From Bacteriovoracaceae bacterium (GTDB lineage Bacteria > Bdellovibrionota > Bacteriovoracia > Bacteriovoracales > Bacteriovoracaceae), in the NCBI GenBank assembly GCA_013141065.1, contig JABFRR010000002.1:89927-153926 (forward strand): 64,000 nucleotides of DNA, read 5' to 3'. A program made the translations under genes and the position numbers. Each line of letters starts with the position of its first letter. Position 1 is the stretch's first letter. Under the pieces are notes generated by a model. It saw only the letters and a program-made list of their open reading frames with translations, had not been told where the DNA came from and searched no databases. This document shows, piece after piece, positions 10,547 through 31,986 of this stretch.

Positions 10547-10974
10547 TAAAAAAATTAACCACACAATTATTTTTTTGTTTTTTAGTTTTCTCTATCGAAG
10601 CCTCGGAAAAGAGCTGTGAGATGTATAATATAAAAATCATCTTTGATAAAAAACCTATAGTCTCCAGTGAAGATATGTGCAGTTTTATTGATGAGGATAA
10701 TTCACTTTATTACATGTCGAAATCTTGTTTGTTTTATGGATGTGAAGTTTTAAAAAAGAAAAAAACGAGATTAGTTATTCCCAATTATTTGGGTAAAATA
10801 GGTTCCCCCGGATTTAAATTGTGTAATGAGCTTGGTGGGGTACCTCAAATTTTTGAATTTCAAAAAAAGTCCAATGCCTGGCAAAATACGGAACGATGTC
10901 TTTTTAATAAACGCGATTTCATTGAGATTTCTTTTTTGACCAAAGAATGGAAAGCTTATATAAAAACTGAGTAA
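10543..10974 (+). CDS. hypothetical secreted Cys-rich protein
   Basis: ORF overlapping the peptidase stop (ATGA-type); signal-like N-terminus. Confidence 0.4.
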   Translation: MIKKLTTQLFFCFLVFSIEASEKSCEMYNIKIIFDKKPIVSSEDMCSFIDEDNSLYYMSKSCLFYGCEVLKKKKTRLVIPNYLGKIGSPGFKLCNELGGVPQIFEFQKKSNAWQNTERCLFNKRDFIEISFLTKEWKAYIKTE

Positions 10975-10975
10975 T

Positions 10976-12083
10976 CTAAGTCAAACGTAAGAGAGCTCCA
11001 ACTTTTGAAGCAATGCCTGGCTTGATACTGAGGTTTTTACCCGTTTCCACTCCCGCAGCACTCGCTCCACTGTGTGTGGCCCCAGAACCAAGAGTTGTGT
11101 GTCCTATTCGTGAATAGACAATTTGTAGTTTTTTAGAGAGATTTGACTCAATCAAAATTAAGTCTGAACTCTGAGCATGAGCTTTTTTTTGTTTTTCAAT
11201 TTTTTCAACATAGCCTTTCGCCACACCTCTAAAAAATGAATTTTTTGCAGTGATGGTCTTAAACTGTGGATTATCTTTTTTAGTGATTTTCCATAAACGA
11301 TCAAGCTCACTGTCTAAAAAATTAGCGACATAATCGGCCAATTCCACACTGGTTTTATCTCCAATGACTTCCAAATAAAAAAGTCCAGTCCCATGATTAA
11401 AAACGGGTGAGACAAAAAATGTTTTGAGAATTTCATAAATCGCCACGTGCTTGGCGCTCTTTCGTTTTGCTTCGAGAACTCTTTTTACACAGACTTCTTC
11501 GTCTGTATCAAGTTTTTCTCGAGACAGTCCTTTGGTGAGGTCTAGGTTGTGTTCAAGTAATAGGGCATTGGCCTTTAAAGTTGCAAGCTCTCTTTTCATG
11601 TGGGTTATCACTGCTAGTTAAGGCCAGTAGTTTTTTTAAGCGCTCTAAAAGTTTTTCTGTTTTTAAATCACCTTCTAATTTAGAGTTTTCAAGATTCAGA
11701 TTTGAATAGGCCCTTTCAACTTCAGGATCCCATCCATAACTTCGACAAACATCTTTAAATTCTTCACCATGAATGACGTGCTCCGGGCCGTGGACAATAA
11801 AGGCAATAAAGTGGGCGAGTTCGTGGCGAATGACATTTTTTAATACTCTATCGTGCGCCAGCATCATCAATTTTTTCGAAAGTCCAATTTCATAAGTGCG
11901 GTGATCGAAATATCCAAGACGATTATGGTCTTCAAAGACCACAATGTTTAAGGGATAAAGAATTCCATTATAGAGGACGCGACTGCGATCCATTTTTAAG
12001 TTCATTTCAAGATTAATAATCTCACGAACGTCTTCGCGAACTCTGGCAATGAAGGTTTTGATTGTTTTAGAATAATAAAACAT
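10976..12083 (-). CDS. SprT-like zinc metalloprotease domain + DUF2786-like region, split by a frame change at about 11593
   Basis: ORF 11553-12083 has NVIRHELAHFIAFIVHGPEHVIHGEEF and ends LLERLKKLLALTSSDNPHE; ORF 10976-11611 continues RELATLKANALLLEHNLDL in another frame. Removing one base of an A4 run (plus-strand TTTT 11593-11596) joins them. Confidence 0.7.
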
Positions 12084-12103
12084 TCGGCACTATAGGCTAT
12101 TTT

Positions 12104-12808
12104 TTATTGAAGGGCAATTAACTTATTGGGCACATCGTCTTGGAGCAGAAAATGACGTTTTTTGACTTCTAAAAGTCGCATTCTTTGGTCTAGTTTTGAT
12201 AAATAAATTCTTTTAAATTTCTTTGAATGCGAGTGGTAACGTGCGTACCAACGTCGATCATTTTTAGCATATTTATTTTTTAAGTGAGTTAAGATTAACA
12301 CCATTTTTTGCAGAGAATAAGCATGGTCGACTTTTAATCTTTCTACATCAAGTGGTTCTAAGTTTAGTCTTAGAAACTCTTTATTCCAAACATGGGGGTT
12401 AATTTGAGCAATTGAAAGATCTCCTGTGGATGAAACGGCACTTTGATTAAATAAGCTTTCTACATCAATGATTGAAACCATTATTTGAGGGTTAAGAGAT
12501 GTTCCCTGAAGAGCATCTGAAATCAGTTCTGCCACTTGAGTTCTATATTCAATAGGTAATTCAGGTCTTAAGATAGAGATCATTTTTTCAACAGACCGAC
12601 TATTGGTCGGCATTTTAGTTTTATCAAAATCACTGTATTGATTGTTGTAAACATTCGTTAAGTTCACACCATTAGTAGACGGATTAGAATTAGAATTGAA
12701 ATCTTTAGAATTGCAATAAATGCCAACTGCCATAAAGGAGCAAACAACCATTTTACTTAATAGTTCTTTTTGTTCTTTAGGAGTGAATATGAAATTTAAT
12801 GTTTTCAT
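12104..12808 (-). CDS. lytic transglycosylase-like (SLT) protein
   Basis: LNPQIMVSIIDVESLFNQSAVSSTGDLSIAQINPHVWN; N-terminal hydrophobic segment. Confidence 0.65.
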   Translation of the reverse strand: MKTLNFIFTPKEQKELLSKMVVCSFMAVGIYCNSKDFNSNSNPSTNGVNLTNVYNNQYSDFDKTKMPTNSRSVEKMISILRPELPIEYRTQVAELISDALQGTSLNPQIMVSIIDVESLFNQSAVSSTGDLSIAQINPHVWNKEFLRLNLEPLDVERLKVDHAYSLQKMVLILTHLKNKYAKNDRRWYARYHSHSKKFKRIYLSKLDQRMRLLEVKKRHFLLQDDVPNKLIALQ

Positions 12809-13136
12809 ATATCCATTATAAGGGGCATATGGTTTGGTAAATCTCCTAATTTAGCCTGTTGTCGATATACCAATAAGTTAAAAAAATAAAGGGATTTTTA
12901 AGCAGTTGAATTTGCATTTATATCACTTAGATAAAGACCTAATGACTGTCCAATATTCAAGGCGATTGTTTTGTAATTTGTTGAAATGTGAAGAGCAAAA
13001 TTGACTCACTTATTTGGTCAATTTTAAATCTTAAGATAAGTATAATTTATATTCTTTTAGGAATATTTCTCTTGTTTGTTTTAAATTTGCCGTTAACCTT
13101 CTGTAATACATTTTGAATGTCAGGGAAGGAAGTTCG

Positions 13137-16100
13137 ATGAAGTATTTATTTGTCACATTTTTATTTTTTTCATTAAGTTTTCTCAGTAATGCTCAAGATA
13201 ACTGTACTGGTGTTCGTATTAATATGAATTTCTATTACAGTGAGTGTGCACGAATACAAGCTGAATCAATTGAGCAGGGTGCAGAGGGGCTGGTGTTAAC
13301 CCCTACAAAAAAACTCGTATACGTAGATGATAATGGACAATCATACTCGAATATAGAATGCGTTAGTAAATGGGAGCACTTAATATTTGGTTATATTTCT
13401 GAGCCATTTTTAGATACATGTGGTGTGAATCCTCCTGGGCCCAAAATTCAAAACGCAAACTCATGCGGAGTCCCTGGCTCAATAATCGAAGTTTCTAATC
13501 AAGTTGTCGGAGAAGTCATTCCCGTGGTCGGAGCCCCATTTGAATTAATTTATTATTCTAATAAAGTTATTGGCAGAACAGAAGACTATATTTCAAGAAT
13601 TCCATTAACAGCTCAGACTTATTCATCTGCAGTTATACATTTAGGATTACTAATAAAAAATGAAATTGATGCCACAGTCCTTAGTACGAGTTACACCCCT
13701 TCTTCAAATATTATTTATAATTATCAGTGGGATGGGTTCGACGCAAGTTTGAATGAAACGTGGGGAAAAATAAGACGAAATGTTACAATTTCTGAAACTG
13801 CCATGGATTTATCATTTCCACCAGAACCAAGGGACATCTATCTTGGTAATTTGAAAGCTAAAAAATTAGGAATAGGAGCATGGCTTCCGAGTATCTGGCA
13901 TTTTTATGACCAGGTTTCCGGCACACTTTTTAAAGGAGACGGGTCCTATAGAGAAATCAAAGGAAAAGTAATTGGTGCCTACACAGAAGTAGCAGATGAA
14001 TCTGGCCTGGAAGTTTATTATTTTGATAGCACTGGTAAAATCTCTCATACAAAAACAGGACTTACTGGGGCGACGATTTTTACTTTTTTATACGATGGTG
14101 CCGGCAGAATAACGAGCATTACACAAGCATTTGGGCAAGTGACAACTTTTTCTCGAGATGGCTCAGGACAACTTCAGTCAATTGTTGCTCCCAACGGAAA
14201 AGTAACTAATGTGAGTTTTAATACGAATGGATATTTATCAGAAGTTTCTAATCCCAACTCAGAAGACTATCTAATGACCTATTATGGAACGACGGGGGGG
14301 CTACTTCATACATTTACTAAACCTTCAGGTGATGTGACAACTCTTACCTATGATAGTTATGGAAATTTAACAAGTGACACTCACACCAATGGTTTTTCTT
14401 TGACGCTTAGTAAAGTTGACGGTGTCGTTTCTTCAGTGAGTTCTGAAGGTGTCACCAATTTTAGTAAATATACACCATGGGATTTTACAGAAAAGAGCAC
14501 TTCGGCAACAGGCCTAGTTAATTATGTCAGTACAACACCTACGTCAACTGCCATTAGTTCACCTTTTGTAAGTCGCAATTATACTTATGAAGCCGATTTA
14601 CGTTTTGGAGATCAAGTCAAAAATATTTCAAATTCATCTATCTCTAACTATGGAGTCCGAAATACAAGTATCACACGAAGTCTGAATTTAAATACACCAA
14701 ATGACCCTTTTTCAATTGATACATATTCAATTCTAGAAACGGTTGGCCCTTCTGAAACGACTTCAGTTTATTCAGGCAGCAATAATTCTTGGGTGACAAC
14801 TAGTAAGCTTGGAAGAACACTGACGAAAACTTTAGATACTTATGAAAGACCAATTTCCGTGCAGAAAGGAAATTTGACTGCCACAAATTTTACTTACACT
14901 AATGAGTTGTTAACAAAAATTTCTCAAACGTCTGCGAGAGAAACAAGCTTTACATATTTTACAAATAAACTTTTAAAAGATGTGACTAATGCTCTCAATG
15001 AAGTCACTAGCTACACTTATGATAATGCCGAAAGACTTTTAACGAAAACACTACCTGACTTAAGAGTGATTACTTATAGCTATGATTCAAACGGAAATAT
15101 AACTAGTATCACTCCACCGAGTAGACCGGTGCACACTTTAACATACGGGTTGAATGAAAAACTTGTCGATTACACTCCTCCAAGTTTATCCGGTGTGAGC
15201 ATCGTTAAAACAGAATATACTTATGACTTGGATAAGAGGTTAATAAAGATCACTAGACCCGATGGAAAGGAAATTGATTTTACTTATAGTACAGCGAATG
15301 GACTTCTTGATACGACGTCAGGTTTGTTTGGAACTATTACTCATGGTTATAATTTGGGAAGTCTCACAAGTATTGTGGACCAATTTGGATCAACTCTTAA
15401 TATGAATTATACCGGCAATACAGTGACTTCAAGTGATCTCAGTGTCACGGCGGGAGCAGTATATAGTTATTCACGAACTCCAAATGCCACTGCTGGCGAA
15501 AAAACTGCAAGTGAAACGATTAATGGTTTGGGAGCAAGTTCTGTTAATAGAACGGTTGCCTATACTTATAACGATGACGAATTATTAACTGGCGCTGGAA
15601 CAATGAGTCTCGTTTATAATGTACCCAACGGACAATTGACGGCAACGACCTTAACGAATATTAAGGATTACACTTATTATAATTCTTTCGGCGAAGTCAT
15701 TCAGTATGTAGTGAAAAAAGGCACACCCGTTATTTATCAATATGACTTAATCAGAGACAATCTCGGACGAGTCACTAAAAAAACAGAACTCTTAAATGCC
15801 GTGACAACAATTTGGGACTACCTCTACGATAGTGCTGGAAGACTGACTCAGGTAAGTAAAAACTCTGTCGTCGTTGCCACTTATAGTTATGATAATAATA
15901 GTAATCGCACGGGTGGAATAATTCGAGGTGTGAGTACTACTGCCATCTATGATAATCAAGATCGACTGACTACATATAACGGTATTGCTCGAAGCTATAA
16001 TGCCAATGGTGAACTGTTAACACTCGGAACGGCCGTCCTTACTTATGATGTCTTTGGAAATTTAAATCAATTTGTGAATGGTTCAACAAATGTGACTTAC

Positions 16101-16913
16101 GAAGTTGATCCACTTCAAAGAAGATTGGGACGCACGATAAATGGAGTGGGATCATCGCGAACGAGATATATTTACAATCCAGAAAATCAGGTTATCGGTG
16201 AATTAAATTATCAAAATAAATTAGCGAAGACTTTTATTTATGCGACTAAGAGTCACGTGCCAGATTATTATATTGATAGCGGTGGAAATAAGTTTAGAAT
16301 AATAACTGACCATCTTGGATCTGTCAGAATGGTAGTGAACGCGAGCACGGGGACTGTTTCACAGTACATGGAGCACGACGAGTTTGGAGTGGTGTTGACG
16401 GATACAAATCCAGGCTTAACACCATTTGGTTTTGCGGGAGGGCTTTATACTCCACAGTCTGGGCTGGTTAGGTTTGGGGCGCGTGATTATGATCCATTGG
16501 TTGGTCGTTGGTTGAGTAAAGATCCGATTAGGTTTGATGGTGGGGATACTAATTTGTATGGGTATGTTGAAAATGACCCCATAAGTTTTATAGATGAGGA
16601 TGGTTTAAATAGAAATAGACCTGGTGAAAAGAGGGAAGTTGGAGGTAGCGTTGGCGGCGGAGGTGTTATTTATGTTGCACCTAACGGACAAGCAGCTTTC
16701 GCTCCGACAGGCTCATTTGTTTCACCAACAAAGTATGCAGATGGGTTGAAAATTAATACGCCTAATGGTGCTCAAATTCGATTAATGGACCCAAAACCTA
16801 TGAGCCCCAATGGTTATGGTGTAATTAATATAAACGGTAAATTTTATAACTCTGGAGGTCAAGTTGTTCCAAAGAGCTCACCAGAAGCACACATACAACC
16901 AACATGTAAGTAG
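13137..16913 (+). CDS. full-length RHS/YD-repeat protein with variable C-terminal (toxin) region
   Basis: Signal peptide MKYLFVTFLFFSLSFLSNAQ; many YD repeats; core end [49 protein letters not shown] then unrelated ~97-aa CT. Confidence 0.93.
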   Translation: MKYLFVTFLFFSLSFLSNAQDNCTGVRINMNFYYSECARIQAESIEQGAEGLVLTPTKKLVYVDDNGQSYSNIECVSKWEHLIFGYISEPFLDTCGVNPPGPKIQNANSCGVPGSIIEVSNQVVGEVIPVVGAPFELIYYSNKVIGRTEDYISRIPLTAQTYSSAVIHLGLLIKNEIDATVLSTSYTPSSNIIYNYQWDGFDASLNETWGKIRRNVTISETAMDLSFPPEPRDIYLGNLKAKKLGIGAWLPSIWHFYDQVSGTLFKGDGSYREIKGKVIGAYTEVADESGLEVYYFDSTGKISHTKTGLTGATIFTFLYDGAGRITSITQAFGQVTTFSRDGSGQLQSIVAPNGKVTNVSFNTNGYLSEVSNPNSEDYLMTYYGTTGGLLHTFTKPSGDVTTLTYDSYGNLTSDTHTNGFSLTLSKVDGVVSSVSSEGVTNFSKYTPWDFTEKSTSATGLVNYVSTTPTSTAISSPFVSRNYTYEADLRFGDQVKNISNSSISNYGVRNTSITRSLNLNTPNDPFSIDTYSILETVGPSETTSVYSGSNNSWVTTSKLGRTLTKTLDTYERPISVQKGNLTATNFTYTNELLTKISQTSARETSFTYFTNKLLKDVTNALNEVTSYTYDNAERLLTKTLPDLRVITYSYDSNGNITSITPPSRPVHTLTYGLNEKLVDYTPPSLSGVSIVKTEYTYDLDKRLIKITRPDGKEIDFTYSTANGLLDTTSGLFGTITHGYNLGSLTSIVDQFGSTLNMNYTGNTVTSSDLSVTAGAVYSYSRTPNATAGEKTASETINGLGASSVNRTVAYTYNDDELLTGAGTMSLVYNVPNGQLTATTLTNIKDYTYYNSFGEVIQYVVKKGTPVIYQYDLIRDNLGRVTKKTELLNAVTTIWDYLYDSAGRLTQVSKNSVVVATYSYDNNSNRTGGIIRGVSTTAIYDNQDRLTTYNGIARSYNANGELLTLGTAVLTYDVFGNLNQFVNGSTNVTYEVDPLQRRLGRTINGVGSSRTRYIYNPENQVIGELNYQNKLAKTFIYATKSHVPDYYIDSGGNKFRIITDHLGSVRMVVNASTGTVSQYMEHDEFGVVLTDTNPGLTPFGFAGGLYTPQSGLVRFGARDYDPLVGRWLSKDPIRFDGGDTNLYGYVENDPISFIDEDGLNRNRPGEKREVGGSVGGGGVIYVAPNGQAAFAPTGSFVSPTKYADGLKINTPNGAQIRLMDPKPMSPNGYGVININGKFYNSGGQVVPKSSPEAHIQPTCK

Positions 16914-16922
16914 GATATAAAA

Positions 16923-17297
16923 ATGAAAAGTTTTGAGAGTGTTAATAAACTAATTAATGAGAAGCTAAGTTTTCCTATAAAAGTAACTATTAAGTGTGAA
17001 AATCAAGAATACAATATAGAAAACGATGAAATAAAAATTGCTTTAGGTGATATCTTTTATTTTTCATCAAATGAAGGTGAAACGCTTGTTGCAAAAGAAA
17101 ATATTTTTTCTATGTTAAATATAAATGAAATAACAATACTTAATATGCAAGTAGATGAATTGAATATATTAAAAATCGAATGCAAAGAATGTATCATATT
17201 AGGTTTTCCTAGAGAGTATGAGGGCTGGGGTATTTATGTAAAAGGTAAACAATTTGCAGCTCATTATGGGTGGCAAAATGATTTGGATTGGGAGTAG
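16923..17297 (+). CDS. putative cognate immunity protein of the RHS CT
   Basis: Small acidic ORF 10 nt after the RHS stop. Confidence 0.5.
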   Translation: MKSFESVNKLINEKLSFPIKVTIKCENQEYNIENDEIKIALGDIFYFSSNEGETLVAKENIFSMLNINEITILNMQVDELNILKIECKECIILGFPREYEGWGIYVKGKQFAAHYGWQNDLDWE

Positions 17298-17420: not shown

Positions 17421-17437
17421 TGGCCAGAAAATGGCCA
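17421..17437 (+). repeat. cassette-site copy 1: TGGCCA-GAAAA-TGGCCA
   Basis: Direct reading; followed by TGCACC...GGTGCA inverted repeat and GGCCGC. Confidence 0.75.
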
Positions 17438-17521
17438 AGGATTGCACCAAATTTCTTAAAATACTGTCAAATGAGGCATCGGGTGCAGGGCCGCAAAGAT
17501 TCTTGCTCTCTAATATTTAAG

Positions 17522-17583
17522 AATTATGGATGAGTAAAGATCCAGTGCCATTTGCGGGAAATTATCACTGGGTCTTTAAATAG
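17522..17583 (+). pseudogene. RHS core-end remnant (LWMSKDPVPFAGN)
   Basis: tta tgg atg agt aaa gat cca matches RWLSKDP of RHS core. Confidence 0.55.
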
Positions 17584-17698
17584 GTGGCCAAAAAGTGGCC
17601 AAATATTTAGAAAAATTCCAAAAAAAGTGCTTTAAATGAGCACTTTTTTGGAACGGCCAACTGGCACTGACGTTGGGAATTTTCCACTTAAAGACCCA
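17569..17698 (+). repeat. cassette-site copy 2 in a large palindrome: TGGCCA-AAAAG-TGGCCA (17585-17601)
   Basis: Outer arms TGGGTCTTTAA (17569-17579)/TTAAAGACCCA (17688-17698); inner hairpin TTCCAAAAAAAGTGC/GCACTTTTTTGGAA. Confidence 0.75.
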
Positions 17699-17813
17699 AT
17701 TTAATTGTATTTTCCAAGGTTGTGAGAGCTCTTTGATAAAGGCTAGTTTTGTAAGAGAGTTTTTCATACAAAAATGAAGTTTAAATATTAATTCTGATAT
17801 AAGGAATATTAAA

Positions 17814-19517
17814 ATGCATCGAATTGTAAAATCTCACTTAGACAATTTTTCTAAAAATTTTGGACTAGAAAAACTTAGTGAATCATATCAGTTTGAAGTT
17901 TTTTGTAATTACTCATTACTTTATTCTAGAGTAAGTGGTGATTTAGATGCAACTGATGTAACGACTAGTACAGGTGATGATGGTATAGATGGTATCGCAA
18001 TTATAGTAGATGAAGAATTGTTGATATCAGACGAAGATGCAAAAAATATTTTTTCGACAGAAAAGAAAAATCATGAAGTTGAATTTGTTTTTATTCAGGC
18101 AAAAAGAAGTGAATCTTTCGACTTGGGAGATTTTTTAAAGTTTAAAGAATCAATATTGAGATTTATTACCTCTGAAAAATACGATCCTTTGGATGACGTT
18201 CAAGTAAATACGAGAAAAGTTTTTGATATATGTATAAGTAATGTCCCGAAGATTAGAGGAGGTAAACCTAGCTTAACAGCTAGATTCGTTACAACTGGAA
18301 ATTATCAATTTCCAACAGCCCTGGAGACAGCACTTAAAGATTTTAAAGTACAGCTTGAAGAGCTTGGATACTTTTCTAATGTAGATATCAGTTTTATTGG
18401 AAGAGATGAATTAACTACTCTATGGGTAAGTACATATTCAGGAATAGAAGCCCAGTTAACTATATTTAGCAATGCTCCCTTACCTCCCATCTCAGGAATT
18501 GAAGAAGCATATCTCGTTGTCGCTAAAGCTAAAGACGTAGTATTTAATCTACTTCAAAATAAGGATGGTACTCTTAGAACTCAAGTCTTTGAAGAAAATG
18601 TTAGATCATTTTTAGGGATAGAAAACCCTGTTAATAAATCTATTGCAAACACTATTCATACGACTAATTCCTCTACAAGGTTTCCAGTCTTAAATAATGG
18701 TATAACGATTGTAAGTCCTGATGTTAGAGTGCAGGGTAATACTTTGCATTTATTAAACTTTCAGATTGTTAATGGATGTCAAACATCAAACGTATTATAT
18801 GAAAATCGCGAATATTTAAGCGACGACATTATGGTAAATTTAAAAATCGTAGAAACCTTAAATGAAGATGTTTTTTCTGAGCTGGTTAGGGCAACAAATA
18901 GTCAATCAGAAGTAAAAGAGAATCAATTTTTTTCCTTAAGACCGATTGTAAAAAGAATTGAGCAATATTTTGATTCTTTTGATGGACTGGAAAATCGATT
19001 ATACTTTGAGCGCCGTCAAAGACAATTTGTAGGAAGAGACATTCAGGATGTTAGAATATTTTCAGTTCATAATACTGCTAAATGTGTAGGTTCAATGTTC
19101 CTGAGAAGACCAGATTTGGCTTATAGGTACCCAAGACAGGTTTTTGATAAACTCGGTGCCGATGTATTTTCAGAAGATAATAAAGAAATTATTTATTATA
19201 CCTCATGTCTAGCACTTTATCGTTTTCAATTATTTGTTTCTAATGCGCAAATTTCCCAAAATATGAAAAAATATAAGTGGCATATACTAGCTCTATTTCG
19301 TGCAATCGTTTGCGATAAAAATATCCCACCATTAAACTCAAAACAAATTGAAATTGATTGTACTAATCTAGTTAATGTTTTATCTGCTAACGATGCTTCT
19401 GCTCTTGCACCATTCTTGGAAGCAGTTTTTATAATTGATTCTATGGGCGCTATTACTGATGACAGATTAAAGAGACAATTAGTTTTAGATGAGATGTTTG
19501 CCAAAATTAAAAATTAA
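17814..19517 (+). CDS. AIPR-family abortive phage infection-like protein
   Basis: SRFPVLNNGITIVSPDVRVQGNTLHLLNFQIVNGCQTSNVLYENRE...VRATNSQSEVKENQFFSLRPIVKRIEQYF..LYFERRQRQF is the AIPR signature. Confidence 0.85.
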   Translation: MHRIVKSHLDNFSKNFGLEKLSESYQFEVFCNYSLLYSRVSGDLDATDVTTSTGDDGIDGIAIIVDEELLISDEDAKNIFSTEKKNHEVEFVFIQAKRSESFDLGDFLKFKESILRFITSEKYDPLDDVQVNTRKVFDICISNVPKIRGGKPSLTARFVTTGNYQFPTALETALKDFKVQLEELGYFSNVDISFIGRDELTTLWVSTYSGIEAQLTIFSNAPLPPISGIEEAYLVVAKAKDVVFNLLQNKDGTLRTQVFEENVRSFLGIENPVNKSIANTIHTTNSSTRFPVLNNGITIVSPDVRVQGNTLHLLNFQIVNGCQTSNVLYENREYLSDDIMVNLKIVETLNEDVFSELVRATNSQSEVKENQFFSLRPIVKRIEQYFDSFDGLENRLYFERRQRQFVGRDIQDVRIFSVHNTAKCVGSMFLRRPDLAYRYPRQVFDKLGADVFSEDNKEIIYYTSCLALYRFQLFVSNAQISQNMKKYKWHILALFRAIVCDKNIPPLNSKQIEIDCTNLVNVLSANDASALAPFLEAVFIIDSMGAITDDRLKRQLVLDEMFAKIKN

Positions 19518-19702: not shown

Positions 19703-20161
19703 ATGAATGAAAATAAAATTAGAGCTTGGGGATATTTTCTAAATAGAGTTCTCCTGGGAATAGCAGCAATCGTTGGAGCTTGTAAAGCACCTCAGGCGAT
19801 TTCTGATTATGCAATTAATGTTAAGACTGAGCAGATTATTAATAATGCGATGTCGACTGTGGTAAAGATTGCTTCAAGTATAAAGAATGAGAATCACAAC
19901 ACCATCGTTAATCAGTACAAAGAAAAACTTCAAAGTTCTTTAAACAATCCAAGTGAATTTAAAAAAGAGATTGCAGGTATTCCGGAACCAGTTCTTCAAC
20001 AATTAGGCTTAAAGACTTCAAAAGCTGATCTTTCACATGGCTTGGAAGATAAAAAAACTACCGAAGACGTTAGAAAATTTTTAAATGAGAAATTACCTAA
20101 TTTGCTTTTAGATGCAGCAGGAAAGCCTTTTCTTTTGGATAGGAGCAAGCCTGGCCAATAA
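19703..20161 (+). CDS. hypothetical protein
   Basis: ORF with hydrophobic N-terminus; no recognised motif. Confidence 0.4.
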   Translation: MNENKIRAWGYFLNRVLLGIAAIVGACKAPQAISDYAINVKTEQIINNAMSTVVKIASSIKNENHNTIVNQYKEKLQSSLNNPSEFKKEIAGIPEPVLQQLGLKTSKADLSHGLEDKKTTEDVRKFLNEKLPNLLLDAAGKPFLLDRSKPGQ

Positions 20162-20272: not shown

Positions 20273-20289
20273 TGGCCAAAATATGGCCA
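20273..20289 (+). repeat. cassette-site copy 3: TGGCCA-AAATA-TGGCCA
   Basis: Direct reading; followed by CTCAA...TTGAG inverted repeat and GGCCGC. Confidence 0.75.
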
Positions 20290-20386
20290 AAAATTCTCAA
20301 AAATACAAAAAATTGAGGAAAAACGAGGGCCGCTTGAAGAATAAATATATTTTTATTTTTAAAGACTTAGAGAGATTTTCGATCTT

Positions 20387-20875
20387 ATGATGCCACAGTC
20401 GAATAGTCATTATGATCCATCGGTTGGTCGGTGGTTATCAAAAGACCCTATTAGGTTTGCAGCTGGTGATAGTAACCTTTATGGCTATACATTTAATGAT
20501 CCAATTAACTTGATTGATCCTTCTGGCCTGGATGTAACTTTTTATATTGTTCCTCCTTATCATTCTATGATTGGTGTTACTAATCCTGCTTCACCATCAG
20601 GTATGACTTATGGTGAATTTTATCCTCGTGGAAATGATATTGGCTTAACAGGACCAGTCCCAGGAAGAGTAAATATCACTTCAAGTTATCCTTTACCAAA
20701 GATTCCATACAATACAATTCAGACTACTCCAGCACAAGATAGCCAGGTTCTTCAAAACATGAAAAACTTAAGAAACATGGCAAACGAAGGATCATTTGGT
20801 TATTCGGTTACTGAACAAGGTGGTAGCAATTGTTTTGGATTTTCTTCACAAGCTTGCGGAGGAGCGTGTAAATGA
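20387..20875 (+). CDS. orphan RHS C-terminal cassette (toxin tip)
   Basis: [42 protein letters not shown] core end, then unique CT with YHSMIGV...GGSNCFGFSSQACGG. Confidence 0.8.
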   Translation: MMPQSNSHYDPSVGRWLSKDPIRFAAGDSNLYGYTFNDPINLIDPSGLDVTFYIVPPYHSMIGVTNPASPSGMTYGEFYPRGNDIGLTGPVPGRVNITSSYPLPKIPYNTIQTTPAQDSQVLQNMKNLRNMANEGSFGYSVTEQGGSNCFGFSSQACGGACK

Positions 20876-21117
20876 ATATAGCAGGAACTTTCGTAATATT
20901 TTGGTTTTATATCTATTGGGCACTTATTATAACCTGTCCAATTGTTCTCGCAGTAACGATATATGTTTGGCTTAGGAAAAAAGGGACAATCAAGCAAAGA
21001 CGTTTGTTGATTATTTTTTCAGCATTGCTTTTGATTCTTTCAATATATCAAATAGCATTTTCTGCTTATAAGAAAAACTTAATAGAGAAAATGCCAGAAG
21101 AAGAAATTTACAAATAA
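20872..21117 (+). CDS. small two-TM protein, putative immunity
   Basis: ATGA overlap with the orphan CT stop; two hydrophobic helices. Confidence 0.55.
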   Translation: MNIAGTFVIFWFYIYWALIITCPIVLAVTIYVWLRKKGTIKQRRLLIIFSALLLILSIYQIAFSAYKKNLIEKMPEEEIYK

Positions 21118-21192: not shown

Positions 21193-21208
21193 TGGCCAAA
21201 TATGGCCG
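21193..21208 (+). repeat. cassette-site copy 4: TGGCCA-AATA-TGGCCG
   Basis: Direct reading; next ~120 bp nearly identical to copy 5. Confidence 0.8.
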
Positions 21209-21319
21209 AGGATTTATTAAAATACAAAAAATTCTCGAATTTTGTAGAAGTAGTAAAAAAAGAGATTGCTTAAATATTGAAGATTTAAAGTCGGTTCTAC
21301 TATTTGTCGGCCGCGATAG

Positions 21320-21730
21320 TTGAGGTTTGGGTTGCGTGATTATGATCCATTGGTTGGTCGATGGTTATCAAAAGATCCGATTAGGTTTGATGGTGGTGAT
21401 AGCAATCTTTACGGATATGTATTGCAAGATCCAGTAAATCTAATTGACCCTACCGGTCATATATTTGCCAATGTAGTCGGAGGTATTTTTGGGGCTGCGT
21501 ATACTGCTGCAACTGGTGGTTCTGCTAAAGAAATAATTGGGTATGGAATACTTGGTTTCGCAACTGCTGGTTTAAGTATTCCTGTACAGATTGGTATTGA
21601 ATACTTCTCTAACCCTAATGTTACGGCACCAGATGCTGATAAGGTTCCAAGAGCTCCTAAGCCAAAGAGTCCTTCGTGTGTACCGTCTATGCAATCATGT
21701 CAACCTGCTAAAAATGCTTGTGGAGTCTAA
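21320..21730 (+). CDS. orphan RHS C-terminal cassette (glycine-rich hydrophobic CT)
   Basis: [45 protein letters not shown] then [21 protein letters not shown]... Confidence 0.8.
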
Positions 21731-22035
21731 GAATGAAAATTGCCAAATATAACATAATTGAATTTTTTCCTATGTTTATAGCTTTAGGAATTTTAATAAT
21801 TTTAAGAACTTTTTATCCAGGTTGTGTTAGTAAAAATTGCTTGGGGAATGCAATACTTATATCTTCAGCGATCGCAGCAGTTTTAAGTTTTTTTATTTAT
21901 AGAAATACTCAAAAAATAGATAGCAAAATATACTATTACTCTAAATTACAAAAAGTAAGAATTCTGCTTGGTTCTTTTTTATGGATAGTGCTTTTTATAA
22001 TTATTTTGCTTGATAAAATATTTGTGCTTTTTTAA
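21718..22035 (+). CDS. small multi-TM protein, putative immunity
   Basis: Overlaps the CT ORF end; about three hydrophobic helices. Confidence 0.55.
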
Positions 22036-22091: not shown

Positions 22092-22107
22092 AGGCCAAAA
22101 ATGGCCG
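22092..22107 (+). repeat. cassette-site copy 5: AGGCCA-AAAA-TGGCCG
   Basis: Direct reading; downstream leader matches copy 4. Confidence 0.8.
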
Positions 22108-22204
22108 AGGATTTATTAAAATACAAAAAATTCTCGAAATTTGCGAAAGTAGTAAAAAAAGAGATTGCTTATATATTGAAGATTTAAAGAGGGTTGTTTT
22201 ATTT

Positions 22205-22338
22205 GTCGGCCGCGATATTTAGATCTGGGGCGCGTGATCGATTTACTAATAAAGAAATGATGATTTTAAATAATAAGACTATTTTTGTTGAGATGATAAA
22301 GAAACTTGCAAATACTAAAGCATCCATAAGAGCCTAGG
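22205..22338 (+). pseudogene. degenerate RHS cassette remnant
   Basis: GGCCGCGATATTTAGATCTGGGGCGCGTGATCG matches leader and RFGARD start, then unrelated short ORF (RSGARDRFTNKEMMILNN...). Confidence 0.5.
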
Positions 22339-22548
22339 ATTGATTTTTATTGAAAATGAAGGCCATCGGTAAGGGCCGTAGTTTTGAATGGATTTAAACG
22401 CGAAATTTTGATCTAAAAACACTTAACTGCGTTGTTTTTGATAAATTCAATGAAAGAATTTCGATTAGATTTTTAACTTTCAATTCATCGGATCTTGAAA
22501 AGAGCACTGCGTAGTTTTACTTCTTTCTTCATCAAATTTTCAATTTGG

Positions 22549-22565
22549 TGGCCAAAAAATGGCCA
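22549..22565 (+). repeat. cassette-site copy 6 (recombinase-proximal): TGGCCA-AAAAA-TGGCCA
   Basis: Direct reading; ~100 bp downstream align with copy 2. Confidence 0.8.
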
Positions 22566-22670
22566 AAAATTTGTAAAAGAACTCAAAATTCAGCCTAAAT
22601 AAGGCATTAATTTTGGCTAGCCAACTTACACTTGGTTTGCTCGTTGGCTGCTTAAGAATCGGATTTATAC

Positions 22671-22697
22671 ACAAAAAAAAAGCGCCCTAAGGCGCTT
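22671..22697 (-). terminator. Rho-independent terminator of the recombinase operon
   Basis: AAGCGCC-ctaa-GGCGCTT with an A-run to its left on + (T-run for minus transcripts). Confidence 0.85.
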
Positions 22698-22706: not shown

Positions 22707-23729
22707 TTATTCAAATGGGTTTATAATATCGTTAGTAATTTTTTTCCCTACAGCTTCGGCATAAAGTCTCTTTGTATCGTAAACACTTTTATGCCCGAGA
22801 ATTCTTTGAAGCTCCAAAATATCTCCTCCATTAGATAAAAAAATTACTGCGAAGGAGTGTCGAAGATCCATAGGGCACCATTCTCCTATGTACATTTTTT
22901 TTGCTTTAAATTCATTAATGATCCTAACTAATTTAAAGTTTGTGAATGGCTCCTTATAATAAGTTTGAAAAACAATTTCAGAAACTCGCTTTTTCATTGA
23001 TAAGATTTTTACTAGCTCACTTGATATTTTCAGCGTTCTGTCTTGGCATTGTAATTTTGTATTTAGTCTAACAATGCCATTATCCAAATTAATTTCATCC
23101 CATCGTAGCTCGACAAGCTCAGATGTTTTCATTCCTGTTTCAGCAAACATTTTAATAATAGGATAAAGATATCCGGGAGAATATAATTTTATAGAATTTA
23201 ATAATTTTTTGATGTCAGATTCAGATAGCAGATTTCTAGCTTTTAATGGTGGAGCAATTTGATCATAGTAAATTCTTCTAAGTGGTGACTCTGAAATAAT
23301 TTCTTTTTCTTCAAGAAAGGTAAATAACGAGTCCACATCACCCTTAATGTGTCTCATTGTTATGTCTTTTAAATTATTTTCAGCTTGAATTTGATCAAGC
23401 CACATTTTAAGAGAGTTATGAGTAATGTTTTCGACATAAAATTTTCCAAAAGTGTCGATAAAATCAATTAAATGGCAATGGGTTTTTGAAAATTTATTAT
23501 ACTTTGGTTTTTCTATCAAAAAATAAATAATCAATTCTTCTATTGTTAGATTACTAAATTTGTTTTTAGGCCCAACCTTGTACATAGTTTCAGTGCTTTT
23601 TTTAAAAACTTGGGCATCTTCTTTTGTAGAAAAACAACGGCGAACTTTTCTTTTGGTTAAAGGATCAACAAAGCTTGTTAAAAAATTGTTCTCTTGAGAT
23701 GTGAAAATGTTAACTTTAAATTCTTGCAT
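22707..23729 (-). CDS. tyrosine recombinase, degenerate active site
   Basis: LRHSFAVIFLSNGGDILELQRILGHKSVYDTKRLYA; ETGMKTSELVELRW at the ArgI box. Confidence 0.85.
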   Translation of the reverse strand: MQEFKVNIFTSQENNFLTSFVDPLTKRKVRRCFSTKEDAQVFKKSTETMYKVGPKNKFSNLTIEELIIYFLIEKPKYNKFSKTHCHLIDFIDTFGKFYVENITHNSLKMWLDQIQAENNLKDITMRHIKGDVDSLFTFLEEKEIISESPLRRIYYDQIAPPLKARNLLSESDIKKLLNSIKLYSPGYLYPIIKMFAETGMKTSELVELRWDEINLDNGIVRLNTKLQCQDRTLKISSELVKILSMKKRVSEIVFQTYYKEPFTNFKLVRIINEFKAKKMYIGEWCPMDLRHSFAVIFLSNGGDILELQRILGHKSVYDTKRLYAEAVGKKITNDIINPFE

Positions 23730-23747: not shown

Positions 23748-24785
23748 TTAAGGTTCATATGGCGAGGGGCATTCGATATCTTGAGCTTCTAGTTGACCAT
23801 AAAGATCAACAGTCACATTAATTGAACTGTGTCCCAGGATTGCTTGAAGCTGGTACATTTTGCCACCCTTTTTTAAAAAGTTGTAAGCAAATGAATGACG
23901 TAAGGCATGTGATCCCCATTCATTTTTTACCATTGGAAAAAATTCCTTAAATTTCTTCATGAGTTTTGATAGATCTCCATCAGAGCTAGAATTGTTATCA
24001 TGTCCAAATGTGGTGAAGAGCATGTGATGATTATGACTAGCAAGGTGATCTCTCAAGACTTTTTCAAGGATAGGAGAGATTCGAACAAATCTCTCTTTAC
24101 CATTTTTTGTTTTTCTTAAATGGATAAGTCCTGTTTCAAAATCTACATCCTTTCTATGAAGACTTGTAATTTCTTCTTTTCGAGCACCTGTATGAGCGAC
24201 ACAAGAGAGATAAGGATAAAGTGTCTCAGAAGAAAATGTTTTAGAATTTTCCAAAATTTCTCTTACTTCACCTATCGACAAAACAACTCGGGATCTTTTA
24301 GGAGGAGCGTTACGATTAAAACGTATTCCTTGAATTGGATTTTTTGTGAGATAGTCTTCCTCAATTAAATATTGAAAGAATCCAAAAAATTGTGACCGAA
24401 TATTATTTAATGTTTTGTCACTTAAATCACCTTTTGATTTTGTATCTAAGAGCCATTGCCTTAAATCTGTTTGACTTAACTCTACAACTTTATAAATACC
24501 AAAGGTATCAATGAAGGATTTAAAATAACTAGGTCTTTTTCTTACTTTGGTTCCAGGAAATCTTTCAATAAAGTTTTGCATAGCTTGAGAAATTCTCAAA
24601 TCAGAAAATACATTTTCTCCTTTACTAAGAACTTGAGTTTCAAGTGATTTTTTAAATACCCTTGCATCCTTCAAGGATGGGAAACGCTTTCTAATTCGAG
24701 TGCTTGTTTTAGGGTCAAAGAATTTACATTGATAAAATCCTGATCCCATCTTATGAATTTTCACTTCAAATTGATTTATGCTCAT
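23748..24785 (-). CDS. tyrosine recombinase
   Basis: TGARKEEITSL; TKNGKERFVRIS; HALRHSFAYNFLKKGGKMYQLQAILGHSSINVTVDLYG. Confidence 0.93.
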   Translation of the reverse strand: MSINQFEVKIHKMGSGFYQCKFFDPKTSTRIRKRFPSLKDARVFKKSLETQVLSKGENVFSDLRISQAMQNFIERFPGTKVRKRPSYFKSFIDTFGIYKVVELSQTDLRQWLLDTKSKGDLSDKTLNNIRSQFFGFFQYLIEEDYLTKNPIQGIRFNRNAPPKRSRVVLSIGEVREILENSKTFSSETLYPYLSCVAHTGARKEEITSLHRKDVDFETGLIHLRKTKNGKERFVRISPILEKVLRDHLASHNHHMLFTTFGHDNNSSSDGDLSKLMKKFKEFFPMVKNEWGSHALRHSFAYNFLKKGGKMYQLQAILGHSSINVTVDLYGQLEAQDIECPSPYEP

Positions 24786-25987
24786 AACTTAACTCTCATT
24801 AGCTCATTTGAACTTGGAAGATTATGATCTTTTAAAATTAATTGATGGCTTCGACTTGCTAACCATTTATCAAAAAGTTCAAGTTGAATTAAAAAATGTT
24901 TTTTTATTCCAATATTAACGCTTGGAAACGTTGGGTCTGATTTTATGTGGCGATAAATTAACCACTGACTAATTCCATACATACTGGCAACCTCCTTGAT
25001 TGAGTACAATTTTTTTAATGGAAATTTTTCCATACTTGTAGGCCAACATGTTGTCGGCCGTTCAGTCAATGGCCGTTCTTCAGAATTTAATTTTTTTGGA
25101 ACTCGCTCTTTGGGATATCTGAGGTTTACAAGCGTCGGATTAAGATCGCAGAATTTTTTCTTTAAGTATTTGGTCTCCCTTTTATCGGTTCCTAAAATAT
25201 AAAGATATTTATGCTTTTTAGGCAAAGGACGCTTTAGACATCTAGATTGGTGATCTGTAGAAGCTTGATAAAGAACCTCTTTAATTTTTTCTGGGATTTT
25301 ATTCCAGAAAATTTTGTCACGATAACTCCAGGCCAATTCCCATTTAATACCAAGGTCATGGGCATAATATTTGTAGCTTGTCGTTTTTCTAAAAAGGCGA
25401 TCACAAAACCAATTTTTTTCTGGGAAGGCTTCATCGAAGTATTCAAAGCGTGCTCCCGAATTTTGGCCGAGGTAAGTAAAATTACATGCCTGATAAATAG
25501 TTCCAAGCTCTCTAGCCGTAGTGTCTGAGTAAGCAGTAAAAAATCTAAAAGGAGTATTTTTTACCATCCATTTAATAGAAAACATTAAAAGTGCACTCGC
25601 AAGATTCTTCGGACTCCATGAGATGCATGCACCTCGAGAGATTAATTTTTCTAGATCTCTTTCTTTTTCTCCTAGCAGATTAGAAAATGCATTAGGTGTA
25701 GCCATTACAATAACGCCCGCTAGATTTCCTTTGTAGGTTGCAATGAATCGCTGTGTTGGTCTATGAGGCATTTTTCCAAGCCATTCATGACGTGTGATAA
25801 AATTTCTAACTCTTTCACACATTAATTGGTCGGTTTTATCTATGTATGAAAATGTAAAATCAGAAATTTTTAAAGAGCTAATCTCTTCCTTAATAAGCCC
25901 TGATTCAATAAGATCGAGCTTTAGATTCTTAAGTCTAACGTCATATTGGTAACAGTGATCTTTATTATATTCGTTCCGGTGATCCAA
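24782..25987 (-). CDS. Mom-like GNAT acyltransferase fused to C-terminal excisionase-type HTH
   Basis: ISWSPKNLASALLMFSIKWM..FFTAYSDTTARELGTIYQACNFTYLGQ (Mom-like) and LYSIKEVASMYGISQWLIYRHIKSDPTFPSVNIGIKKHFLIQLELFDKWLASR (HTH). Overlaps start of recombinase gene. Confidence 0.6.
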   Translation of the reverse strand: MDHRNEYNKDHCYQYDVRLKNLKLDLIESGLIKEEISSLKISDFTFSYIDKTDQLMCERVRNFITRHEWLGKMPHRPTQRFIATYKGNLAGVIVMATPNAFSNLLGEKERDLEKLISRGACISWSPKNLASALLMFSIKWMVKNTPFRFFTAYSDTTARELGTIYQACNFTYLGQNSGARFEYFDEAFPEKNWFCDRLFRKTTSYKYYAHDLGIKWELAWSYRDKIFWNKIPEKIKEVLYQASTDHQSRCLKRPLPKKHKYLYILGTDKRETKYLKKKFCDLNPTLVNLRYPKERVPKKLNSEERPLTERPTTCWPTSMEKFPLKKLYSIKEVASMYGISQWLIYRHIKSDPTFPSVNIGIKKHFLIQLELFDKWLASRSHQLILKDHNLPSSNELMRVKL

Positions 25988-27694: not shown

Positions 27695-28291
27695 TTACAA
27701 TTCTATTGCTGCCTGTGTACTGAAGTGGTGATGGCAGTTCCCTGAATGGAAATTTATGGTGAAGAGTTTGCCATTTGTATTTGATAAAATGGCCATAGCC
27801 TTATTTGATTTAAACTCTTCAAGAGTGCAGAAAAATACTTTTCCAGAAAATTGTTTAGCTAGATTTTCTTCAGTTTTTATCAATCCGTTTTTAATGTAAT
27901 TGTCACTACAAATATAGAGGACCGCATCTATGGATTCCTCTAAGTGGTAGTTAAGTAAATGCTTAGTCCAACGATCTGACTTTTTCTGACTTCTTTCAAA
28001 TTCAACAGCGATTTTATATTCTCTCTCTTTAACTAGCAGAGAGAAGTAAATATCTGTATTCAGTCTTCTTAAGGCTTCGTAGTGCGAATCATTATCACCA
28101 AATACAATTGACTGAATTTCATTTTCGGTTTTGATTTCTACCAAATTTCTTGCAAGTGAAAGTTGATCAAATATTCCAGCAAGCTCAATGTCATGTTCAA
28201 TATTTGAACTTTTTAGTTCTTTTCTTATGAGTTGCCCAGAGAGCAAATCCAATATTGCAGTTAAACCTTTTGGTGAGATCGGTAAATTCAA
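27695..28291 (-). pseudogene. replication-relaxation-like protein, C-terminal part (interrupted by IS110-like element)
   Basis: LNLPISPKGL..., YKIAVEFERSQKKSDRWTKHLLNYHLEESIDAVLYICSD; N-terminal part at 29831-30067. Confidence 0.65.
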
Positions 28292-29830
28292 AAAAGTCTC
28301 CTCAGTGCTCTAAAGCACGAATGTTGTAAAATAAGTTTGCGTACATTTTTTAGCAACATTCAAACATTTGAAGGAGACCAGTATGTTTAATCATTATGTA
28401 GCAGTGGATTGGGCAATTGCCAATATGGCAATCGCAAGAATGACGGAAAAATCTGATGATATAAAAGTCATAGATGTTCCATCAAGTATTAAAGAAATGC
28501 AGATATACTTAAAAAACTTAAAAGGAACAATTTGCTTAACCTTTGAAGAAACATCGACTTCACAATGGCTATATACTGAGCTGAAAGAGTACGTTGATAA
28601 ATTAGTTGTTTGTGATCCCTATCGAAATAAATTACTAAGTGAGGGACCTAAAAATGACAAAATTGATGCAAAGAAATTAGTAATGCTACTTAGGGCTGGA
28701 CTCCTAAAAGAAGTTTTTCATTCCAGTGATAAATTTATTGAATTGAGAAAAATAGTAAGTGGTTACGAAGACACAATAAAGGCCGGTGTAAGACTTAAAA
28801 ACCAAAGATCATCAATGTTTCGATCAGTAAATAAAGATCACAAAAAGAAACAGAGCTGATAATAGATGCGGATAAATTTGTACTTGGTGGTGTTGACATG
28901 CAAATTAAATACTATGAAGCTGAAAAATTAAGATATAAAAATGAATTTGCACGACTAAAAAAAAGCACATCCTGAAATAAAAGATTATGTGATATTCCAG
29001 GAATAGCAGACATATCTGCAGTTAAATTAGTTGCAAGAATTGTTGATGCGAATAGATTTCCCAATAGAAATAGCTTTTTGAGTTACTGCGGGCTCATTAA
29101 ACTTGAAAAAATGAGTGGTGGAAAAAGCTATGGGAAGAAAACACCTCGTTTTTGTCGTCCATTAAAAGCTGTTTTTAAAACAGCAGCATTGGCAGCAATT
29201 GATGGAGACAACGAATGTGGAGATTATTGCAAATACCTTATAGAGACAAAGAAATATTCTGACAGAAATGCAAGACATGCTTTGTCGAGACGAATTGCCA
29301 CAATCACTTATGGAGTAATGAAAGGAAATATAAAATATGATGCTTTAAAACGAAGGAACAACATAGAACGAAACAAGATGGATACAAGTAAAACATAGAT
29401 CTATAAGTTTATTTTTGAATAATTTATTTTAATAATAGTTGTTGATAATAACCTTATAGATGGGAAGAGATTGCTCATTTTATATGATAGCATTTAATAG
29501 CTCAGGAGATCGGTTAGCACCTTCCCTTTTTCTTAAATTTATAATGCGGCCAAATTTATAGCCAATGTAGGGGGATATTTAAAAATCCCCTACACATTGG
29601 CAAATTAGAGAGCCCAGATAGACGTGTTGGAAAAACTATAAAATATCCAATTGAAAAACTTATAAAGAAAAGGTTATTAACGTTAAAAGTGGAACAGATA
29701 AATTGTAAAAAATACTTTAAAACCAGGCAGGATTTTGTCATCATTCCCAACATAAGTTAATGTGTGGTGCGAAGTCCGGAGACCGTAAGTCAAGAATTTC
29801 TTGTAATGGGAGACTTTTTTTCTTGACCTA
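28292..29830 (+). mobile_element. IS110/IS1111-like insertion sequence, transposase frameshifted
   Basis: ORFs 28368-28859 (HYVAVDWAIANMAIARM..KNDKIDAKKLVMLLRAG) and 29078-29398 plus CDIPGIADISAVKLVARIVD; near-terminal inverted repeats AAAAAAGTCTCC/GGAGACTTTTTT; removal restores a host ORF. Confidence 0.75.
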
Positions 29831-30067
29831 CTTTTTGATAGACGTATAAATGATCTGACTCGTGCTCCTTTCGGTAAAAGCTCCTTTGTTTATATATTTT
29901 CCATCATACAGGCGGTTCATTCTTTTAATTACTGTGGTCTTGTGGCCATCTTTAAAATATCTATTGAGAATTATTTCAAGGTTCAGGCCTTTGCTATAAA
30001 AAAGATCACGCAATATCAACTTATCTCTTTGAGATAAAAATACCTTCCAATTTTTTATATTTTTCAA
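29831..30067 (-). pseudogene. replication-relaxation-like protein, N-terminal winged-helix part
   Basis: FLSQRDKLILRDLFYSKGLNLEIILNRYFKDGHKTTVIKRMNRLYDGKYI. Confidence 0.65.
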
Positions 30068-30078
30068 TTTAGTTCAGC

Positions 30079-30714
30079 TTAAATTCCAATAAAGATTTCT
30101 TTCTCATTATTTTCAGTATTATCTGAGTTTATTTCTAGCATATTATTTCTACATGGGTATTTGGCATTAAATTTCTCCTGAATAAGTTCAATTTCTGCTT
30201 TTAATTCGTCTTCATCAATAAATGGACATTGAAGTTCTAAAAATTCATTTCCAGATGCCGAAATGGCCCGACCTTTTATATCTGGCAAATCAAATGCCTT
30301 TTTATTTCCTAAGACAGTAATCGAGTTGACCATTGTGTTCATTCTAAAACAGACTCGACCGCCAATGTTTTCTTGAACTTTGGTATCAATGGTTTCTTTC
30401 GAGACTTTTTGAGTTGCTAGAATTAAATGCATTCCTGCTGCTCTTGCCAATTTTGCTAATTCATCTGTGTATTCTCTAGCGGAATTAATTAAGTGAGCTT
30501 TAGTGTCGTTGGATCTGACCTTTGTGTAGAGAACAGAAGCTTCATCAATTCCGATCACGATTTTGTCCATTCCATCCCTTTGAGGAACAATTTCTTTGTG
30601 ACCTGATTTCTCTAAATATTTAAATCGCCGATCCATTTCATCCTTAAGCTTCTTTAACATTTTGCAAGCTTCTTCTTCGGTTTTGGCAATTCTCACATTA
30701 GATATACTGCTCAT
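30079..30714 (-). pseudogene. FtsK/SpoIIIE-like (conjugation coupling type) ATPase, C-terminal fragment
   Basis: IVIGIDEASVLY (Walker B), ELAKLARAAGMHLILATQK, NIGGRVCFRM, GRAISASGNEFLELQCPF; Walker A half missing at the IS630 boundary. Confidence 0.7.
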
Positions 30715-30739
30715 GATTTAATTTTCTAGTAAAAATTAT

Positions 30740-31783
30740 TTGGCCTATTGTTATGGCCGTACTATTATACTTTTCATGTATAAATTTCTTAACAAAGACC
30801 AAAGACAGGAACTACTTGACGAGCTACAAATTGAGCGTTCAAAAAGATACGCTGATAGGATTCGGGTTATTTTACTCTTAGATGATAATCAGACGTACAA
30901 AGATATTTCTAAATTTTTATTTCTCGATGAAGGATCCATTGCCAATTACAGAAAACGCTATATGGAAGGTGGAATCGAAGGCCTAATTCTGGATGAATAC
31001 AGCACCAAAAGAACAAAGTTAAATCTTGTTGAAGAATTTCAACTTGCCAATGAACTTGACGATAGAATCTTTGCTTCAACTAAAGAAGTTGTTAATCATA
31101 TTTTTAAAAAATATAAAGTAAAATTCTCTATTAGTGGCTGCAACAACCTTCTTCACCGGCTTGGATTTTCGTTCAAAAGCAAAAGGCGTACCTGGTAAAG
31201 CAAAGAAAAAGACCAAGAAGAATTTATAGAAAAATACAATTCTCTCAAAGGAAAAGGAAAGATTTACTTTGGCGATGCAACTCATCCACTTCATAATACA
31301 ATCCTTTCTGCTGGGTGGATTAGAAAAGGCGAAGAAAAAGAAGTTTTCACCAATTCAGGTCGAAATCGCGTCAATGTCTTCGGGGCAATTTCTATTGACG
31401 ACTTAGATATCGTAACTCGTAGCTACGATATAATAAATCAAATCTCAGTATGTAATTTTCTAAAAGCATTAAGAGAGAGAAATCCTAATGGTGAGAAAAT
31501 ATATTTTATTTTAGATCGTGGACCAAGCAATAAGGCATTATCCGTAAGAGAGCTGGCGAAAAAATTAAATATTGAGATAGTGTTTTTGCCCGCCTATAGT
31601 CCAAACTTGAATCCTATAGAACGTTTATGGAAATTTTTTAAGAAAAAAGTTTTATACAATCAGTATTATGAAAAATTTAAAGATTTTAAATTAATTTGCG
31701 CCTCATTTTTTCGAGGAATACGAAAGTATGAATTAGAGCTTGCAACTTTAATTACTGATAATTTTTCAGCAGTAGGCACTTGA
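30740..31783 (+). pseudogene. IS630-family transposase, frameshifted
   Basis: N-term YADRIRVILLLDDNQTYKDISKFLFLDEGSIANYRKRY; then in other frames GKIYFGDATHPLHN and FLPAYSPNLNPIERLWKFFKKKV. Confidence 0.8.
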
Positions 31784-31803: not shown

Positions 31804-31986
31804 TATCATACGCATGCAGGTTATGATCCTAGATACAATAACGAAAATTTTTCATCAACCGATACAAGATTTTCAAAAGGTAGAGGATTAGGATCTTATC
31901 TAGGAACCCCCTCTGGAAGCACTCAATATCAAGGACCGAATGGGAACACGACAAATATGTCAGGCCCTAATAGTTGTGGAAGGTAA
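31804..31986 (+). pseudogene. RHS-type C-terminal toxin fragment, DUF4329-like
   Basis: YHTHAGYDPRYNNENFSSTDTRFSKGRGLGSYLGTPSGSTQYQGPNGNTTNMSGPNSCGR* with HTH.GYD..Y.NE.FS..D and YLGTPSG signature. Confidence 0.65.

Follow-up and report, generated by a model that had tools for sequence, protein, structure and literature searches.

What is the site that lies just past a pair of tyrosine recombinase genes in this Bacteriovoracaceae locus, and why do further copies of its core recur between the units of the adjoining Rhs array? The original prediction described the recombinase-proximal site (copy 6) as sharing extended sequence and hairpin layout with one of the others (copy 2), and offered two readings of it, as one of two attL/attR-type ends or as an attI-like primary site. 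The reading favored here, from comparison of sequences, is that copy 6 is probably the recombinase-side copy of the site of the IntB/IntA pair, TGGCCR-N5-TGGCCR with an A-rich flank, and that this site would border head-to-tail units behind a Rhs gene.

Organization of the locus

The window, as the whole stretch of 64,000 nucleotides analysed is called here, comes from a 3.58 Mb MAG (G000); a congeneric MAG, G005, carries the label Bacteriovorax sp. The comparison sample has one genome per species and consists mostly of short MAG contigs. Genes and gene remnants in the window that concern the array and the recombinase element are:

13113-16913, plus strand: full-length Rhs/YD-repeat gene with its own C-terminal tip (TEN_YD-shell, RHS_repeat)
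16923-17297, plus strand: putative immunity gene of the expressed tip (by position only)
17814-19517, plus strand: AIPR-family gene (PF10592, 1.5e-47), cargo between copies 2 and 3
19703-20161, plus strand: DUF1002 gene (PF06207), cargo
20387-20875, plus strand: orphan Rhs tip
20872-21117, plus strand: putative immunity gene (membrane protein)
21320-21730, plus strand: orphan Rhs tip
21718-22035, plus strand: putative immunity gene (by position only)
22680-22697, minus strand: the recombinase operon's Rho-independent terminator, with intA on one side and copy 6 on the other
22707-23729, minus strand: intA, tyrosine recombinase of degenerate active site, with Lys in place of Arg I and no HxxR His
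23748-24785, minus strand: intB, tyrosine recombinase with complete catalytic residues
24782-25987, minus strand: Mom-family protein with a C-terminal HTH_17
27695-28291, minus strand: truncated relative of the replication-relaxation-like protein of L045 and L085
30079-30714, minus strand: truncated FtsK/SpoIIIE-like translocase, interrupted by IS elements and part of the same element backbone
31815-31985, plus strand: probable remnant of a Rhs tip, beyond the recombinase element

An orphan Rhs tip array has orphan tips and immunity genes behind a full-length rhs gene, and this is the arrangement here, the immunity genes being recognized by position only. Such arrays also hold non-Rhs defence cargo, here the AIPR gene, and in the related locus L045 (13804-14474) there are MNT/HEPN-type toxin-antitoxin look-alikes, so named from their sequence only.

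The Mom/HTH_17 gene is kept beside intB in most loci that have both intA and intB. The Mom-family domain of its product is DNA-modification-like and the HTH_17 part excisionase-like, and clusters of GGCC repeats, possibly an operator, occur inside or upstream of the gene (25041-25076 in the window and 6403-6440 in the related locus L087). At 28368-31760 there are IS110- and IS630-like insertions within the FtsK-like part of the recombinase element, and because these broke that part the far end of the element is lost in the window.

The site and its copies

The constant core of the site is TGGCCR-N(4-5)-TGGCCR, and six copies of it stand between units over 5.2 kb of the window, with one further degenerate box pair.

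17421-17520, unstranded: copy 1, array site, TGGCCA-GAAAA-TGGCCA ... GGGCCGCAAA
About 17568-17710, unstranded: copy 2, of the copy 6 class (int-side end), adjoining the AIPR gene
20273-20411, unstranded: copy 3, array site 5' of an orphan Rhs tip, TGGCCA-AAATA-TGGCCA
21193-21321, unstranded: copy 4, array site, TGGCCA-AATA-TGGCCG
22092-22238, unstranded: copy 5, array site with a truncated Rhs motif (GGGGCGCGTGAT) after it, AGGCCA-AAAA-TGGCCG
22361-22377, unstranded: degenerate box pair GGCCATCGGTAAGGGCC, a possible relic
22547-22660, unstranded: copy 6, recombinase-proximal site, GG-TGGCCA-AAAAA-TGGCCA-AAAATTT, hairpin, GCCAAC-N17-GTTGGC

Copy 6 is placed between the last unit and the recombinase terminator, copy 2 is bracketed by GGGTCTTTAA..TTAAAGACCC, and copies 4 and 5, which are 90% identical over 141 nt, bound an 899-bp cassette of tip and immunity gene. 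The spacer between the boxes is 5 bp in 16 of 18 sites, copies 4 and 5 having 4, and its sequence is not conserved among sites.

Outside the array, TGGCCAN4-6TGGCC occurs at only seven places in the 3.6 Mb genome, at none of which (0/7) is the conserved AAAnTT flank present. The 20-bp pattern TGGCCRN5TGGCCRAAA was found in 21 of 129 genomes of the family, with the reversed pattern as control giving two matches in a single genome. Rhs tips or recombinases of the intA/intB family adjoin 17 of the 30 pattern places that were fetched, and one such place is in G013, a genome of the same genus in which no recombinases were detected. Box sites are also present in related loci of about ten further genomes, so that the arrangement is shared with relatives that are likewise of predatory type. 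A scan of genome contigs for relatives gave only one close relative, and searches of plasmids and of viral contigs gave none.

A break in homology at the box

A comparison of nine sites from eight genomes, each preceding an orphan tip, took in the 30 nt on either side of the boxes and gave 36 pairs. Identity on the left was 0.41 against 0.43 for shuffled sequences and on the right 0.77 against 0.54, the spacers differ, and the onset of homology in the eight genomes is exactly at the first box. The same break is seen within single loci, L086 (1680/6443 and 1961/11015) and L087 (797/1854). With unrelated sequence to the left, a first box that is there all the same and homology to the right, the pattern is of the kind that recombination within box-N5-box would leave. 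Conserved boxes, a short spacer and a break in homology are features of a tyrosine recombinase site with two inverted boxes, and all three are found here. Judged by the homology break and the differing spacers, the box would be a junction of cassette type.

The recombinases IntA and IntB

The catalytic R-H-R-H-Y set is complete in IntB. All seven aligned IntA orthologs have Lys for Arg I and have lost the His of HxxR, with the second Arg, the GH of LGH and the Tyr kept, and in all seven loci the IntA ortholog is retained beside a catalytically complete IntB. Such a pairing of active and degenerate enzymes suggests that IntA is architectural or sets asymmetry, and the conserved loss of its catalytic residues raises a mechanistic question, that of asymmetric strand exchange. 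IntB shows distant similarity to the Int whose structure is entry 6emy (E 2.6e-11). With the IntI model TIGR02249 the scores are 69.5 bits for IntB and 46.2 for IntA, the cut-off being 265, and neither is of IntI type.

The family is closely tied to Rhs genes. In 17 genomes, 21 of 27 members lie within 5 kb (<=5 kb) of a Rhs YDPxxGR motif as against 1 of 123 other PF00589 proteins (Fisher p 2.8e-19, on counts that are non-independent since intA and intB are adjacent and some contigs have two). No Rhs motif is nearby on 5 of the 20 contigs that carry the recombinase family, some contigs being short.

Related loci and the single-integrase branch

Sites like copy 6 follow closely on the intA stop in L042 (from a contig of low coverage, with stops in its ints), L045, L085 and L087, in three relatives 106-146 bp past intA and with flanks that match copies 2 and 6, which bears out the description of copy 6 as recombinase-proximal. 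Relatives having the recombinases and lacking an adjacent site would speak against that description; most intA+intB loci are not of this sort. L086 differs: one of its sites is on the side of Mom/HTH, a second follows intA at a distance of about 1.1 kb, and the orientation of its module relative to the tips is opposite. No clear int-adjacent repeat was seen in L047, L048, L049, L050, L052, L053, L088, L091 and L092.

A site is present at both ends of the recombinase module in L085 and L086. In L106, from another family of the phylum, CGGCCG-GTTCG-CGGCCG and CGGCCG-GATCG-CGGCCA flank a two-int module; at 8573-14432 of that locus the two-recombinase/Mom module stands between rhs with its tip and an orphan tip, and is a clean candidate for an element with both ends. 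In L051, with a recombinase 38% identical, the box is YGGCTA-N5-TGGCTA-AAAATTCC. Given the GC-rich box of L106 and that of L051, the sequence of the box varies with the recombinase and its layout stays.

Other loci have arrays with one integrase:

L055, 1696-6654: single-integrase array, six tips in a row
L054, 1667-3936: single-integrase array
L089, 440-8356: single-integrase array, eight tips
L051, 5795-10212: single-integrase array

In these the integrase is adjoined by a short truncated copy of an rhs coding motif, which the rhs gene (where that is on the contig), the orphan tips and the int-adjacent copy have in common, the sequence beyond it being unrelated. The motif is GAGCCAGATATTATGACCCGAGCTC in L055 and L054, GTGAGATATTACAACTCTT in L089 and AGCGATTACAACCCTGTGAC in L051, and the in-gene core of the single-integrase loci is GCCAGATATTATGACCCGAGC. 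As the core of this branch is inside the rhs reading frame, exchange there could swap tips directly and in frame. The intA+intB loci have no box sites inside rhs, and with the site outside the rhs frame an additional (homologous) step would be required for a tip to be joined to rhs.

The modules with a site at each end are relevant to another explanation, namely that the boxes are att sites of an integrative mobile element that lands preferentially in Rhs arrays, the tips accumulating by homologous C-terminal displacement and not being moved by the recombinases. The element would consist of FtsK-like, replication-relaxation-like, Mom/HTH, IntB and IntA components, the backbone seen in L085; it is complete also in L045, L050 and L088, sites flank the module in L085, L086 and L106, and the conserved 125-nt start of the tips would permit homologous exchange. 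The junction could then be the end of a mobile element hitchhiking in Rhs arrays. However, units free of recombinases are also bounded by sites (between window copies 3 and 4 and copies 4 and 5, at 797/1854 of L087, at the G013 tip and on contig C5 of G132), and the single-int arrays, with 5-8 tips at regular spacing, lack any other gene of the backbone, so that this explanation is considered unlikely.

Less plausible by some way is a regulatory role, with the box pair as an operator in the form of an 11-bp direct repeat, to which the HTH_17 protein or IntA would bind so as to control transcription of the orphan tips. The box is indeed about 100-150 nt upstream of many orphan tips, and GGCC-rich repeats are also found in or near the Mom/HTH gene, but the int-side copies lie beyond the 3' end and the terminator of the recombinase operon with no gene start adjacent, and the abrupt stop of homology at the box, with spacers that differ, is unlike an operator within one promoter.

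Copies 2 and 6

When copies 2 and 6 were read directly, all the checked details of their common sequence and hairpin layout proved correct. GGTGGCCAAAAARTGGCCAAA has two exact matches in the window, at 17583 (copy 2) and 22547 (copy 6), and a third place like it, with three mismatches, is at 20271, none being expected in shuffles. The block common to the two copies is 26 nt, and their common 21-mer pattern is expected 0.00 times in shuffled sequence. In copy 6 the hairpin CAAAATT..GCCT/AGGC..AATTTTG (22584-22615) is accompanied by a second inverted repeat, GCCAAC (22620-22625)-N17-GTTGGC (22643-22648); in copy 2 the hairpin is at 17621-17649 and CCAAC-N10-GTTGG at 17657-17676.

That the two are a real pair is borne out by their right flanks, which agree with one another and with the int-side sites in L042, L045 and L085, and do not match copies 1, 3 and 4. 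Copy 2 and L042 moreover both carry GGGTCTTTAA...AGACCC. As the flanks match int-side sites and not array copies, copy 2 is probably an orphaned recombinase-side end, most likely a leftover whose recombinases were lost or replaced by the AIPR/DUF1002 cargo, and copies 2 and 6 are two ends of one kind and polarity. That they are the attL and attR of one element spanning 17.6-22.6 kb, as their extended sequence and direct orientation had suggested, is the least credible reading and was rejected, since they have polarity, class, layout and right flank in common where attL and attR should have only the crossover core, since both match int-side ends in other genomes and since three other box sites lie between them. 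Among the genomes compared, one per species, there was no locus in which copies 2 and 6 are fused.

The different bases of the two hairpins had also been taken to suggest that structure is preserved, and support for this is weak. As single-stranded DNA both copies fold more stably than shuffled sequence, with z -3.2 for copy 6 and z -5.3 for copy 2, and the main hairpin is found in L042 and L085 as well (AATTGG-GCC/GGC-CCAATT and similar). Among five sequences, 3 of 7 hairpin pairs have two-sided changes, a result that gives weak support to structural covariation and that 25 of 500 shuffles equal. In the window the main hairpin is absent from array copies 1, 3, 4 and 5, which also counts against preservation; apart from the box pair, excess folding is lacking in most array copies, with right flanks mostly at z near 0, and the second inverted repeat is not kept in L042, L045 and L085. 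Because five sequences make up the sample, A/T runs inflate the signal and array copies do without it, the hairpin is not used here as evidence for an attC-like substrate. The idea that copy 6 is the terminator of the recombinase operon was rejected, that terminator being a separate one at 22680-22697; the copy 2 hairpin scores as terminator-like on the minus strand, and it may conceivably have such a role.

A proposed route for tip exchange

As far as can be judged from the sequences, the locus is most likely an integron-like cassette recombination system dedicated to Rhs. The units joined at the border would be a Rhs tip with its immunity gene, other defence cargo or the recombinase module. 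Strand exchange may occur in the 5-bp spacer with spacer mismatch tolerated, as with the coupling sequences of Tn916/CTnDOT or in integrons; IntB would be the catalytic subunit and IntA a structural or asymmetry-setting partner, and single cassettes would be excised as circles and inserted into the array. The genomes compared, with one per species and mostly as MAG contigs, showed no excised circles, empty sites or rearrangements between strains. Put forward more tentatively, as possible rather than probable, is a ‘toxin-tip integron’ of Bdellovibrionota-type bacteria, in which IntB and an obligate degenerate IntA would shuttle cassettes of tip and immunity gene via mismatched 5-bp spacers, and the single-integrase branch would use the rhs coding motif for an in-frame swap of toxin domains. 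For Rhs and other polymorphic toxins, both the building and the exchange of tips are generally put down to homologous recombination. Border sites together with a tightly linked recombinase family offer a site-specific route that can be tested directly through the circles, junctions and enzymes that it predicts, and what may be an integron-like way for bacteria to gather weapons and antidotes.

Comparison with known systems

Integrons are similar in having a tyrosine recombinase beside one site, head-to-tail cassettes, repeated sites with short inverted boxes, variable spacers and defence or toxin cargo. In contrast to them, the recombinases here are paired, with one degenerate, and are at the 3' end of the array with the Rhs gene at its start. 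IntB and IntA are far below the IntI cut-offs and the array sites lack an attC-like fold, so that the likening of copy 6 to attI holds as a fair functional analogy and not as a statement about the type of recombinase or site. In shufflons (Rci, with PilV tips) a tyrosine recombinase is also downstream of an array of alternative C-terminal ends, but shufflon segments invert between inverted repeats, whereas the repeats here are direct, so that excision and insertion are expected. Integrases of the Tn916/CTnDOT type recombine across short (5-6 bp) non-identical spacers; the likeness is in the spacers, IntB being only distantly similar to 6emy Int.

No papers on border sites for Rhs tip cassettes were found in the open-licence literature, a result that is not proof of absence. 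Orphan Rhs arrays themselves are known, and where they are discussed in two later papers their origin is put down to homologous or illegitimate recombination within the conserved core (Jackson 2009, as cited by PMC5727410 and PMC8125069). Rhs C-terminal displacement, as presented there, likewise has a full-length rhs followed by orphan tips and immunity genes; the locus here differs in its defined border sites and dedicated recombinase family. In Snodgrassella and Gilliamella of the bee gut, integrase-like genes recur near Rhs loci and capture of Rhs sequences was suggested by the authors, with no sites, borders or mechanism described in the parts of that paper dealing with them (PMC5727410). 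Also comparable are recombinase-linked immunity arrays, the rAID loci of Bacteroidales (PMC12247911) and the polyimmunity loci beside XerC/D-like recombinases (PMC3482391), where a tyrosine recombinase adjoins an array of immunity genes with conserved intergenic motifs. The rAID loci consist of immunity genes only, whereas the units here, which are not of the rAID kind, combine toxin tip and immunity gene and are attached to a Rhs delivery gene.
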